A stretch of DNA of 38,823 nucleotides from Pseudomonadota bacterium (GTDB taxonomy: Bacteria; Pseudomonadota; Gammaproteobacteria; Xanthomonadales; Ahniellaceae): NCBI GenBank assembly GCA_022705045.1, contig JAKJFE010000012.1, positions 1 to 38,823 on the forward strand, written 5' to 3'. The notes beneath the pieces are model-generated. The model worked only from the letters and a program-made list of their open reading frames with translations, made no database searches and had not been told where the DNA came from. Shown piece by piece: positions 12,274-37,829 of this stretch (positions are counted from its first letter, which is position 1; every line of letters starts with the position of its first letter). The position numbers were made by a program, and so were the translations under genes.

Positions 12274-14016
12274 TCAGTCGCGCCCGGCCCAGTCCTCGGC
12301 GAGCAGGGCGAGCTGCGACTTCACCTTGTCGCCGAAGCGGGCGTGATGCACGCCGAGCAGTCGCTTCAGTTCGCTCTCGGTGATGTAGCCGATCGAGGCG
12401 CGATAGTCGCGTTTGACGCGTTGGCCTTCGCGCCAGCGGCGTTCCATGCCGTCGAGATCGTCGGCGGTCATCGCGACATGGGTCGGATGCGTCAGCTTGT
12501 GCTGGGCGACGCGGGCGATGTGGCGGGCGACCAGATCGCGCATCGGCGTCTTGCGCGGCAGGCGCTCGATCTGCACGCGCCCGCCGAACTCGAACACCGA
12601 GGGATTGTCGTACTGCGTCGACAGGTGCGTGCCGTCGTCGAACTGGCTGACGCATTCCAGCATACGATGCACGCGCCACTTGCCGGTCAGCAACAGGAAC
12701 AGGAAGCCGATCAAGCCCGGCCATTTCGGTTTCATCGCGAAGCTGGCGACACCGATCTCGCCGGTGTCGTCGGCAAAGAACCGGAGCAGCACCCGTTGGC
12801 CGAGCATCAGGAACAGGCCCTTGGCTTCCGCATCGCCGACGTGGCGCAGGCCGAGCGCACCGATGTCGCGGGCCGCGGCGTCGACGAATCGGCGCTGGTA
12901 GGCCGGATAGTCGGCGGCATCGACGATTTCGAGTTCGGGGGGCGGCTCATGCGCGACATTCAGGATCTGCTGCGCGATGTTGGTCGCCATCAACGTGTCC
13001 GGATCGTCGCTGACACGCGACTCGATGGCCTCGGAGACCGACTTCCCGGCGCGAATGGCATTTGCTGCGGCGATCAGCGCCTGGGCCGCGATGTCTTCGT
13101 CGAGTTTGCGATTCTTCCCGTCGCCGATCAGTCCCGATTCGATCAGGCGCGCCATCTGCTCTCGCTCGCCGGCACCGTTGTGTTCGGACTTGGCGCGTGT
13201 CTCCAGGATGAAGCCGCGTTTCGGATCATCCGCAGCCATCGTCGCCAAGGCTTCGTCGTAGGCCGCCAGCGCTTCGTCGTAACGGCCAAGATCGTGCAAC
13301 AGCATGCCCTTGCGCACGGCGTAGCGGTATTCGTCACTCAGCGCGAAGGCGGTTTCGTAGTCGGCCAGCGCCGCTTCCAGGCGGCTGCGTGAATAGCGCA
13401 GGCCGGAGAAGGTCTTGACGGTGTCGGCGTCGTCCGGACCGTTGTCGTATCGCATCGCCGCGGAACGGCGCAGCGACGCCCGCGCGTCGATCAGGTCGAT
13501 CCGCAGCGGCGCGAGTTCGATGGCACGGTCGAGCAGCGCATCGGCTTCGGCGACTTGGCTGTTGCCATCGTCGCGGTAGCGGAGCGTGTTCGACAGCAGG
13601 AACAAGCCGTCGACGAGGTTCGGATCGATGGCGAGTGCGCGCCGCAACTCGGCCTCGTTGCGCATCGACGCCGCCAGCGCCTGTGCGCGCTGTTCGGCAT
13701 CGATACGTGCACGCTCGGCTTCAGTCGCGTTCTCGTCGTCAAGTTCGCCCAGATCCTCATCCAGGCCGAGATCGGCGAATTGCACGCGCTTGACGATGGC
13801 GGGCGCATAGTCCGGCTTCAACGCCAGCAGACGATCGAGCGTCGCCGCGATCTCGGCGTGCCGTTCCAGCTTTTCCAGGCAGTTCGCACGATGCCAGTAC
13901 AGGGCCGCGGCCTGCGGATTCGCCGTGATCAGGGCGTCGATGCGTTCCAGCGCTTCCTGATGGCGGCCCTGCTTGAAGGCGTCGGCGAAGCGGCTGAAAT
14001 CGGGATGCAGGCTCAT
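12274..14016 (-). CDS. TPR protein with a paralogous C-terminal domain
   Basis: A 580-residue protein without a signal peptide. The N-terminal half is made of tetratricopeptide-type helix pairs (EALERIDALITANPQAAALY, ALAIDPNLVDGLFLLSNTL, ALADYETAFALSDEYRYAVR and ALAAYDEALAT). The C-terminal 230 residues form a domain of unknown role with VLLRFFADDTGEIG, a hydrophobic GLIGFLFLLLTG stretch, LECVSQFDDGTHL, and LPRKTPMRDLVARHIARVAQH. The protein at 14119-14778 carries a shorter version of the same domain, so the two are tandem paralogues. A stretch of about 100 bases separates them and they are probably cotranscribed. The protein ends eight bases from the convergent GGDEF gene. Function is unknown; the TPRs point to protein binding. 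Confidence 0.8.
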   Translation of the reverse strand: MSLHPDFSRFADAFKQGRHQEALERIDALITANPQAAALYWHRANCLEKLERHAEIAATLDRLLALKPDYAPAIVKRVQFADLGLDEDLGELDDENATEAERARIDAEQRAQALAASMRNEAELRRALAIDPNLVDGLFLLSNTLRYRDDGNSQVAEADALLDRAIELAPLRIDLIDARASLRRSAAMRYDNGPDDADTVKTFSGLRYSRSRLEAALADYETAFALSDEYRYAVRKGMLLHDLGRYDEALAAYDEALATMAADDPKRGFILETRAKSEHNGAGEREQMARLIESGLIGDGKNRKLDEDIAAQALIAAANAIRAGKSVSEAIESRVSDDPDTLMATNIAQQILNVAHEPPPELEIVDAADYPAYQRRFVDAAARDIGALGLRHVGDAEAKGLFLMLGQRVLLRFFADDTGEIGVASFAMKPKWPGLIGFLFLLLTGKWRVHRMLECVSQFDDGTHLSTQYDNPSVFEFGGRVQIERLPRKTPMRDLVARHIARVAQHKLTHPTHVAMTADDLDGMERRWREGQRVKRDYRASIGYITESELKRLLGVHHARFGDKVKSQLALLAEDWAGRD

Positions 14017-34961: not shown

Positions 34962-34998
34962 GTTCGTTCCCTAGTCCAGATTGGGTGATTTCGTCCGC

Positions 34999-36777
34999 AT
35001 GACGACGACGATCAGAAAGACCCAGGTAGATCTCGCCGGACTGATGCGTGTGCTCGGCGAGGCGTTGTATTCAACCCCATTCGTCGCGATTCGCGAACTG
35101 GTGCAGAACGCCCATGATTCGTGCGTGCGGCGAAAGCTCGAAGCGCGGGACGAGTTCGCGCCGGCCATCAGCGTTCGCGTCACGGATGATTCGCTCAGCT
35201 TCATCGACAACGGCGCTGGTCTGACGGTGGACGAGATCCATGCCTACTTGGCCACGGTCGGTACCGGCTACACCCGTGCGCTACGCGATCAGGGTGCGGG
35301 CGAGGGGTTGATCGGCTATTTCGGTCTGGGCTTTCTGTCCGCGTTTGCAGTCAGCGACCGTGTCGAAGTGTGGACCTGTTCGTATCGCACGCCGGATCAG
35401 GCGCATCGCTTCGTCAGTCGTAGTGGCGAGACCTATTCGGTCGAGCGTGCAGAATCGCGGCCGATCGGAACCGAAGTGCGTCTGACGCTCAAGCCGGGGT
35501 TGCCGGAGCTCGCGGATGCCGATGTCGTGCTGGCCTGGCTGCGGCGCTACTGTTCGTTGCTGATTCATCCGGTCGATTTGAACGGGGGCGAGCCGGTCAA
35601 TGCGGACTCTCCGCCATGGCGCCGCACGGATCTGAGTCCGTTGCGCCGTCGAACCCTGTCGTTGGAATTCGCGAGTCGCTTCGAGCCGACGTTCGCGCCG
35701 ATGACGACCATCACCGTCGATGTGCCAGATGCGCAATTGTCCGGTCTGATCTGGGTGCAGGATGGCAGCACCTACTCAAGCAGCGACAACCGTAACGTTG
35801 GCGTATTCGTGCGTGGCATGCTGATCAGTGACGAGGAGCGCGACTTGTTGCCGCGCTGGGCGGGATTCGTCGGCGCGGTGATCGAGAGTGCCGCATTGCA
35901 GCCGACAGCCAGTCGCGAGTCGCTGAAGCAAGATGCTCAGTACGACCGTGTCGCCGAGGTGCTCAGGCAGCGATTGATCGACGGTCTGCGCGAGATCGCC
36001 ACCAATGATGCCGCGACCTGGCGGCGGGTACTCGGTCGCCACAATGAGGCGCTGCTCGGTGCAGCGCTGGCCGACGAAGGGCTGTTCGATTTGATGGCCG
36101 AACAGCTGACGGTGCCGACGACGGAAGGTGACCTGACCTTGCCGGCGTTGTTGGCGAGGGGAAACCGCTCGGTCTATCTGACTCAGGAAGAGCGGGTCGG
36201 CTTCGAATCGATTCTGATGCGTGCGTTGAAACAACCGATCGTGCTCGGCAGGCGCTTTGGCGCGGCACCATTCTGTGCCCGCTACCTGCAGAAGCGTGGT
36301 GGAAAGCTGGTCTCCCTCGGGACTGACACTGGAGACCGCAGCGTGTTTCGGGACGCAGTCATCGACGAAGAGTCACGATCCACGCTCGAATCCGGGTTTT
36401 CGGCGCCGGATCGGAAGGTTCAGGTCTGCACCTTCGAGCCCGCGCACCTTCCGTTCGCGCTCATTACCGATCGCGAAGCGATGCTCAAGCGGCGAATTGA
36501 AAGTGACGAAGCGGATCGACGCATTGGCCAGGCTGTGCTCGGGCTGGCGCGCCAGTTCACGCGTACCATCACCGCCGATGCGCCCGTGCGGATGTATCTG
36601 AACCATGCGAATCCCGTGATTCGAATGCTGCCGGCATTGCCCGAGCCCAGGCGACAACGTGCGCTGGCGATGTTGCAGCCATTGATCGCGATGATGTCGG
36701 ACGCGGTCGCAACGGACATGGAGCGCGCGATGCAGATGTTCTGCGAGGCCTTGACCGCCGAGCTGGAGACGCCCTGA
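34999..36777 (+). CDS. Hsp90-family ATPase distinct from typical HtpG
   Basis: A 592-residue Hsp90 homologue, near HtpG in length. The GHKL ATPase domain has FVAIRELVQNAHDSC (the Asn that binds magnesium), FIDNGAGLTVDEI, the lid and glycine loop LIGYFGLGFLSAFAV, and GTEVRLTL. The middle domain has VGVFVRGMLISDEERDLLPR and PTASRESLKQD, keeping the Arg that contacts the ATP phosphate in Hsp90. The C-terminal part is divergent and ends LTAELETP, with no MEEVD-type TPR-binding tail. ATG 34999 was preferred to TTG 34981. The stop overlaps the start of a TPR-like gene (TGATG). It is divergent from scoA. It could be a specialised chaperone or part of a conflict system; its clients are unknown. Confidence 0.88.
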   Translation: MTTTIRKTQVDLAGLMRVLGEALYSTPFVAIRELVQNAHDSCVRRKLEARDEFAPAISVRVTDDSLSFIDNGAGLTVDEIHAYLATVGTGYTRALRDQGAGEGLIGYFGLGFLSAFAVSDRVEVWTCSYRTPDQAHRFVSRSGETYSVERAESRPIGTEVRLTLKPGLPELADADVVLAWLRRYCSLLIHPVDLNGGEPVNADSPPWRRTDLSPLRRRTLSLEFASRFEPTFAPMTTITVDVPDAQLSGLIWVQDGSTYSSSDNRNVGVFVRGMLISDEERDLLPRWAGFVGAVIESAALQPTASRESLKQDAQYDRVAEVLRQRLIDGLREIATNDAATWRRVLGRHNEALLGAALADEGLFDLMAEQLTVPTTEGDLTLPALLARGNRSVYLTQEERVGFESILMRALKQPIVLGRRFGAAPFCARYLQKRGGKLVSLGTDTGDRSVFRDAVIDEESRSTLESGFSAPDRKVQVCTFEPAHLPFALITDREAMLKRRIESDEADRRIGQAVLGLARQFTRTITADAPVRMYLNHANPVIRMLPALPEPRRQRALAMLQPLIAMMSDAVATDMERAMQMFCEALTAELETP

Positions 36778-37829
36778 TGGATATCTGGCGTTGGGTGGGA
36801 CAGGTGGGTTATGACTTGCGTGATGCCGGGCATCATCGCCTGGCCGAGATCATCGACGATTTGCCGCCTGCCGTCTGCTACGGACGCCACGAGGCCGCCG
36901 AGGCCATGGTCCCTGAAGGATTGGCGCTTGCGCGGGGGTTGGACTTGCCTTGGGTCGAGGTTTTTCTCCGCCATTGGCTCGCGCAGAGTCGTCTCGCCCA
37001 CCGGCGTGATGTATCCAGCGGCTTGGCTGAAGTCATCGACTTGCTCGACTTTGCACATCAGGAATCTGCGCGTGAATGTCCGCAGAGTATCTGTGTGACC
37101 CAGGACGTCTGTATCGCCTACGGGGCTCTGGACGGACCGGGATACGGCGAGGAGCGTTTGGCTGCAGCGGTCGAAGCGATGGCGAGGATCGATGTGTCGT
37201 GGCCTTGTTTCGGGTGCATTTCCAGCGAGCAGGCGAGTGCGCTGCTGGATCTCGACCGGTTTGCCGAAGCCGAGGCGTTTTGTCGAGCGCAGATCGCGAC
37301 GGCCGCGAAAGCCGGGCAGTCGCGCCCGGGAGAGGTGACGATCTGTCTTGCCGAAGCGCTGCTGGCACAAGGTGAATACGAGGAAATGCTCGCCTTGGTT
37401 CGCCGCCGACAGGAGTTCTCGCAGACCACGTCCATCAAGCAGCGACGGCAGATCCTCGAATGCATTGCATTGGCGAAACTGGGGCGTCTCGAGCAGGCAC
37501 TAAAGGAAAACCCCAAGCCGACTCGACTCGACCCCTCGCAGTATGCCTACTGGTCTAGGCTGCAGCTTGCGCTCTGCGAACGGCGTGCAGAGCTGAATAC
37601 GCCCGCACTCGATCAAACCTTGGATCGCTACCGTAGCGAGCTCGAAAGCAATGGTGCCTTGTTCGATCAGGCCGAAATTTCTGCTGCTGCGGCCAAGCTT
37701 GCCTGGATGCGACAGGATCACGCCCGCGTCGCTCGCTACTTGGCGATCGTCGACGACTTGCTGCCGAGGCTGAAGCGTCCGAAACGCATCATCGAACTCG
37801 CCGATGAACTGCGCAAAATGATGTCGTAA
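36777..37829 (+). CDS. TPR-like helical partner of the Hsp90-family protein
   Basis: A 350-residue all-helical protein of unknown function, without a signal peptide. Helix pairs fit a TPR or similar alpha-solenoid (EEMLALVRRRQEFSQTTSI, LDLDRFAEAEAFCRAQIATA, CLAEALLAQGEYEEM and CIALAKLGRLEQALKENP), with about six to eight repeats of low conservation. Four Cys cluster at about residues 105-145 (SICVTQDVCIAY and SWPCFGCISS) and could bind a metal, since the second pair is CxxC. The ATG is shared with the Hsp90-family stop (TGATG), so the two are made together. TPR proteins are the classic co-chaperones of eukaryotic Hsp90, which makes a physical partnership a reasonable inference. Confidence 0.75.
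   Translation: MDIWRWVGQVGYDLRDAGHHRLAEIIDDLPPAVCYGRHEAAEAMVPEGLALARGLDLPWVEVFLRHWLAQSRLAHRRDVSSGLAEVIDLLDFAHQESARECPQSICVTQDVCIAYGALDGPGYGEERLAAAVEAMARIDVSWPCFGCISSEQASALLDLDRFAEAEAFCRAQIATAAKAGQSRPGEVTICLAEALLAQGEYEEMLALVRRRQEFSQTTSIKQRRQILECIALAKLGRLEQALKENPKPTRLDPSQYAYWSRLQLALCERRAELNTPALDQTLDRYRSELESNGALFDQAEISAAAAKLAWMRQDHARVARYLAIVDDLLPRLKRPKRIIELADELRKMMS

Follow-up and report, generated by a model that had tools for sequence, protein, structure and literature searches.

A Bacterial Hsp90 Subfamily Distinct from HtpG Is Encoded Beside a TPR-Type Protein with Four Conserved Cysteines

Introduction

Could a bacterial Hsp90 have a tetratricopeptide repeat (TPR) partner of its own? The question is raised by two overlapping genes, here called A and B, in a 38,823-nucleotide contig (JAKJFE010000012.1, assembly GCA_022705045.1) from an Ahniellaceae bacterium of the Gammaproteobacteria; the whole of this stretch is referred to below as the window. 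Current annotation names A an "ATP-binding protein" and B a "hypothetical" or "tetratricopeptide repeat" protein. We know of no classical Hsp90 co-chaperones in bacteria, where Hsp90 is regarded as working without eukaryotic-type cofactors. Hop, Aha1, and p23 have been described as lacking apparent orthologues in eubacteria (PMC8082187), the bacterial HTPG proteins have been split into three groups, labeled A, B, and C in that study, with two copies noted in Streptomyces coelicolor (Chen et al. 2006, PMC1525184), and a survey of conflict systems does not mention Hsp90 (PMC7159879). A full-text literature search, which left out most subscription papers and preprints and so does not prove priority, returned no description of a bacterial Hsp90-TPR operon.

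Results

Gene A encodes a member of the Hsp90 superfamily

The features of the two genes are as follows.

34999..36777, forward strand: gene A, Hsp90-family ATPase of 592 aa, of a subfamily apart from HtpG and PRK14083
35095..35118, forward strand: Hsp90 N-box ELVQNAHD with catalytic Glu33 and Asn37, invariant in 31 relatives
35206..35220, forward strand: DNGAG nucleotide motif, D70-x-G72-x-G74, with D, G, and G invariant
35314..35331, forward strand: GYFGLG ATP-lid motif, residues 106 to 111, from the alignment of 31 relatives
35911..35919, forward strand: middle-domain Ser-Arg-Glu, with invariant R306 equivalent to the HtpG SRE Arg by alignment
36775..36779, forward strand: TGATG stop/start overlap coupling A and B, read from the sequence
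36777..37829, forward strand: gene B, TPR-type alpha-solenoid of 350 aa, equal to the N-terminal unit of a family of about 770 aa
37077..37094, forward strand: CPQSIC, with C101, P102, Q103, and C106 invariant in the B alignment
37206..37217, forward strand: CFGC, with C144 and C147 invariant in the B alignment

Gene A opens with an ATG at 34999, with a possible TTG start upstream at 34981, and closes with a TGA at 36775 to 36777. Its product matches Pfam HSP90 (PF00183) at 1.6e-8, and a PDB search returns TRAP1 at 7.8e-28. In an alignment of 31 sequences, the others being 41 to 53% identical to the window's A, the ATPase residues E33, N37, and D40, D70xGxG74, and G106xFGxG111 are invariant, as is the middle-domain S305-R306-E307. 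The C-terminal part aligns to the HtpG C-terminal domain (hhalign profile alignment, 531 columns), and an AlphaFold model of the A orthologue from locus L035 aligns along full-length Hsp90 structures in Foldseek. A is a member of the Hsp90 superfamily, with GHKL motifs that include the catalytic Glu and Asn, a middle domain with the SRE Arg, and a C-terminal domain, and it would act as an ATP-driven clamp of N-M-C architecture, a putative chaperone. The tails of the 31 A proteins have neither a shared motif nor an EEVD-type ending. A preliminary description, made from the window alone, had credited A with all the Hsp90 ATPase motifs and the middle-domain SRES Arg and had pointed out the absence of MEEVD, all of which the alignment bears out; the C terminus that it called divergent is divergent but still Hsp90-like.

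Scores and phylogeny set A apart from HtpG and PRK14083

The product of A matches the NCBIfam models for HtpG (1.1e-50) and PRK14083 (3e-85), both under the curated cut-offs, with 173 bits against 371 for HtpG (NF003555) and 286.8 bits against 455 for PRK14083 (NF010683). With an A-type HMM, PRK14083 proteins score about 175 to 252 bits and HtpG proteins about 130 to 190, compared with about 850 for an A-type protein scored alongside them, and in a tree of 49 Hsp90s the A-type, PRK14083, and HtpG sequences form three groups with SH-aLRT values of 99 to 100. Judged by these scores and this tree, A is a bacterial Hsp90 subfamily distinct from both named families, and its earlier designation as a non-HtpG Hsp90-family ATPase stands. 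HtpG shares with A the full-length N-M-C architecture, the ATPase motifs, and the SRE Arg, whereas A lies under the HtpG cut-off and in a separate clade. PRK14083, an "HSP90 family protein", is the nearest named family and adjoins A in the tree, but membership of A in that family was rejected by score and by its separate clade (SH-aLRT, 99).

The host genome also encodes a canonical HtpG (793 bits). Among 24 other A-type genomes, several of which are drafts, a canonical HtpG scoring above cut-off is present in 16 and absent from 8. In Enhygromyxa salina (L036:2381-10169), canonical htpG lies a few kilobases upstream of the A-B pair. In Pseudomonas sp. KNUC1026 (G321:C1:2456046-2457788, the genome of locus L053), canonical htpG is split over frames and A-B is intact, which reflects either a sequencing error or a real loss.

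Gene B encodes a TPR-type solenoid with four invariant cysteines

The preliminary description had read the second gene as an alpha-solenoid that overlaps the first as TGATG and carries a CxxC pair. The overlap is confirmed, since the stop of A at 36775 to 36777 shares its last base with the ATG of B at 36777. The repeat fold is likewise supported: the model of the window's B is all helical, a 17-helix solenoid with a pLDDT of 94.7 and a pTM of 0.92, and among PDB structures it is matched best over its full length by MalT domain III (TM score, 0.65; MalT range, 0.63 to 0.65). At the sequence level, the window's B matches TPR models weakly and below the Pfam cut-offs, and its long orthologues pass them. 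As modeled, B is a TPR-type repeat protein, an antiparallel helix-pair superhelix. It has the same fold as MalT domain III and Rap-type TPR proteins, yet it shows no convincing sequence relationship to them and has no DNA-binding, STAND, or phosphatase part.

The CxxC is present, but the conserved cysteines number four, in CPQSxC and CFxC, rather than a single CxxC pair. The invariant residues of B (E47, W59, H66, W67, C101, P102, Q103, C106, Q109, D110, D119, G120, C144, C147, and E151) all belong to the N-terminal unit (about 350 residues) and fall within its first half. In the model, C101 and C106 lie at the beginning of one helix, with C144 and C147 at the beginning of a later one, an arrangement from which we infer a shared metal site; lying beside the conserved E..W..HW set, this is probably a zinc site. 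The redox chaperone Hsp33 likewise has four cysteines in two pairs about 30 to 40 residues apart. In Hsp33 they occur as CxC and CxxC, in a fold different from that of B.

In most B orthologues, which are about 750 to 800 aa long, the N-terminal unit is followed by additional TPRs and by a conserved stretch of about 170 aa at the C terminus, for which Pfam gave no match. The N-terminal unit occurs alone in the window, in three Pseudomonas loci, in one tandem copy at locus L034, and in genome G041. We looked for the missing C-terminal half of the window's B and did not find it nearby or elsewhere in the host assembly (86% complete), so this B appears to be a short form like that of Pseudomonas. 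At the L034 locus of Parabeggiatoa (L034:4593-8017), two tandem B genes follow A, a short form of 352 aa and a long form of 765 aa.

A and B occur together across phyla

A locus search with A alone returned 80 loci, which are not independent because many are from Stenotrophomonas and Xanthomonas. A B homologue was present in the same contig in 77 of them, usually directly downstream of A on the same strand at a distance of -4 to about 120 nucleotides, in two loci directly upstream, and in five at 1 to 3 kb. Of the three loci without B in the contig, two (L039 and L044) carry B at another place in the genome, and in the third (L111) the contig stops right after A and the B N-terminal unit was not found in that draft genome. 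In evenly drawn genomes, A was present in 3 of 274 Gammaproteobacteria, all three with B (the B N-terminal unit is present in one further genome, where a contig end interrupts A), and in 5 of 209 Myxococcota, each with B as well, in four cases on the contig that carries A. The association is seen in four phyla, and the pair is known in a minority of Escherichia coli, in Pseudomonas aeruginosa, Stenotrophomonas, Xanthomonas, Myxococcota, Actinobacteria, and Chloroflexi, so that conservation as neighbors across genomes, which had been put forward as the first check, holds. The P. aeruginosa pair is WP_003082113.1 and WP_003082116.1, which we take to be PA1068-PA1069, the former annotated as a probable Hsp90-family heat shock protein.

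The distance matrices of A and B correlate at r = 0.83, a mirror-tree value that includes shared ancestry. Every aligned B protein that is associated with A keeps the HW pair and all four cysteines. Distant B-like proteins occur in five Myxococcota genomes without A. An N-terminal part is readable in two of these genomes, a small sample, and there the solo proteins lack the HW pair and three of the four cysteines; a second B-like copy, in G533, retains all four cysteines without HW. With the B HMM, 29 HtpG loci and 26 PRK14083 loci, the latter with 1.5-kb flanks, yielded nothing but one weak generic TPR match. B was thus rejected as a general partner of HtpG (0 of 29 loci, apart from that weak generic match). 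No third conserved gene accompanies the pair, with repeated neighbors found within close genera only, and a scan for sigma-70 promoters found none.

In the tree of 49 Hsp90s, the window's A groups with Myxococcota sequences and not with the Stenotrophomonas/Xanthomonas version, an A-type gene is present in 1 of 40 relatives of the host, and the nearest relative of the window's B is also a Myxococcales sequence, which together suggest that the pair reached this host by transfer as a unit.

The pair is a presence/absence locus in E. coli

A is found in 245 of 5,426 complete E. coli genomes and B in the same 245, and a query spanning both genes maps to 245 single places. In the commensal E. coli SE15 the two genes (products WP_000105776.1 and WP_000382017.1) form a bare unit between fdhD and yiiG, whereas K-12, without the pair, has about 150 nucleotides at that site; the pair is also downstream of fdhD in Salmonella Infantis SARB27. 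Comparison of the two E. coli allele classes gives dN/dS values of 0.034 (A) and 0.118 (B), which at the sequence level demonstrate purifying selection on both genes, and dN is 0.050 for B versus 0.009 for A.

A comparable gene pair accompanies PRK14083

In 25 of 26 actinobacterial PRK14083 loci (L117 to L143 and L144 to L163), the Hsp90 gene is followed by a gene for a TPR protein of 676 to 1,033 aa, with a -4 overlap in many of them. This protein has three invariant cysteines (C167xxC170 and C202) and one invariant His. Homology between it and B was considered and rejected, as the full-length profile match lies in generic TPRs alone and the in-register CxxC match in the N-terminal part is weak (probability, 26 to 38%). 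PRK14083 is like A in having a coupled downstream CxxC TPR protein, although that partner itself matches B weakly, and two non-HtpG Hsp90 lineages each have such a coupled protein.

Discussion

The near-constant pairing of A and B in unrelated bacteria suggests that B is a dedicated helper for a bacterial Hsp90. The partnership itself is well supported, and from it we infer a biochemical role: A and B probably work as a single unit in which B serves the Hsp90 as its dedicated TPR co-chaperone or adaptor. This role is favored because the pairing is one to one, a solenoid by itself is the minimal unit, and TPR solenoids are in general protein-binding. B would recruit or hold a limited range of clients for A, or tune its ATPase cycle, and the working part would be the N-terminal unit of about 350 residues, the sole part kept in short forms. 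Since A lacks a conserved C-terminal tail, contact would be made through domain surfaces, and an EEVD-type contact appears unlikely on present sequences. The eukaryotic TPR co-chaperones Hop, FKBP51/52, and PP5 are similar in that a TPR protein is partnered with Hsp90, but they are three-repeat clamps that use (M)EEVD and a carboxylate clamp, whereas A has no EEVD-type tail and B resembles the MalT/Rap solenoids and has a conserved tetra-cysteine site. Against a co-chaperone role stand the distant B-like proteins that occur without A, the fact that no neighbor or domain indicates a client, and the want of a confident A:B interface in the read-through model described below.

The main rival to a co-chaperone role is that B is a dedicated client or effector, which A folds or activates, or whose metal loading A permits; the cellular job would then fall to B, acting by way of its TPR surface and of the C-terminal domain in those forms that have one. 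The one-to-one pairing would fit this, B evolves faster than A, and most B proteins carry the extra domain of about 170 aa; nevertheless, short B proteins without that domain persist with A in the window, in Pseudomonas, and in the single L034 and G041 examples, and B is predicted to be a regular, very confident solenoid with no obviously difficult fold, so that we regard the client role as unlikely. That the two genes are neighbors by operon inertia alone and act independently seems highly improbable to us. A read-through AlphaFold model of the L035 pair, with the stops read as Gly, gave well-folded halves and no confident interface, which would agree with independence but is a weak test, as it was a monomer model from a shallow alignment with a short linker and no PAE, and its pTM of 0.58 is about what two unconnected domains give. 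Operon inertia does not account for co-retention where gene order is swapped or the genes lie apart, for the identical set of E. coli genomes, for the association in four phyla, or for the parallel PRK14083 pair.

The pair might instead be a conflict or anti-phage module, as the preliminary description had also considered, in which the GHKL/Hsp90 ATPase would be the sensor, or set the threshold, and B would be the acting component. The patchy distribution and the presence/absence pattern in E. coli are consistent with this, and PADLOC models of TmtA (Tiamat), which like other GHKL conflict proteins shares the ATPase fold with A, match the ATPase domain of A at 1.3e-10. However, these models are 1,063 to 1,782 positions long and match across that shared fold alone, whereas in A the middle and C-terminal domains of an Hsp90 are both complete; the window's B has no PADLOC match and the long B proteins have at most one weak TPR match, and no known PADLOC anti-phage system was matched by both proteins. 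The 141 neighbors of 27 loci are mostly housekeeping genes with isolated defense matches (a Type III methyltransferase, two of the TIR type, and a few others), and in raw counts, taken without a background set, no enrichment of defense genes around the pair is visible. The E. coli pair stands alone between its two flanking genes, the pair keeps its genomic position among Stenotrophomonas and likewise among Xanthomonas, and the window flanks are metabolic, with MTHFR, DbpA, an acyltransferase-GNAT protein, and a CoA transferase. With neighbors of this kind, a defense-island setting is not supported for this lineage, and a conflict role is distinctly unlikely here. It is kept alive at low probability by a remote cyanobacterial Hsp90-like protein with a C-terminal TIR-like domain, whose gene neighbors include a ThsB TIR gene, one for a DrmD-like helicase, and one for a TPR protein, and some non-HtpG Hsp90s may serve in conflict.

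That cyanobacterial protein, on Pseudanabaena plasmid NZ_AP017561.1 (L180:422-12790), is a non-HtpG Hsp90-like ATPase of 877 aa (HMM score, 339 bits), its C-terminal domain is a weak match of the CAP12/Pycsar type, the ThsB gene is of the Thoeris type, and a VWA protein is also encoded there; the locus is a candidate Hsp90-TIR conflict system. A further observation in the window is a second TPR protein of 580 aa, encoded at 12274..14016 on the reverse strand among metabolic genes.

Returning to a co-chaperone role for B, the two coupled pairs lead us to a tentative and, on balance, doubtful speculation that in at least two related non-HtpG Hsp90 lineages a dedicated TPR co-chaperone, working without EEVD, senses metal or redox state through its cysteine site, so that the Hsp90 works on demand, in a partnership separate from the eukaryotic one. 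A conserved Hsp90-TPR unit would supply a genetically tractable Hsp90-partner pair, and A and B would let one ask if cooperation between Hsp90 and TPR proteins arose more than once. Because K-12 has a natural empty site, the effect of presence or absence is directly testable. A natural E. coli strain with a broken B also exists: PT62 (L183:3338-5644) has an internal stop in B and an intact A.
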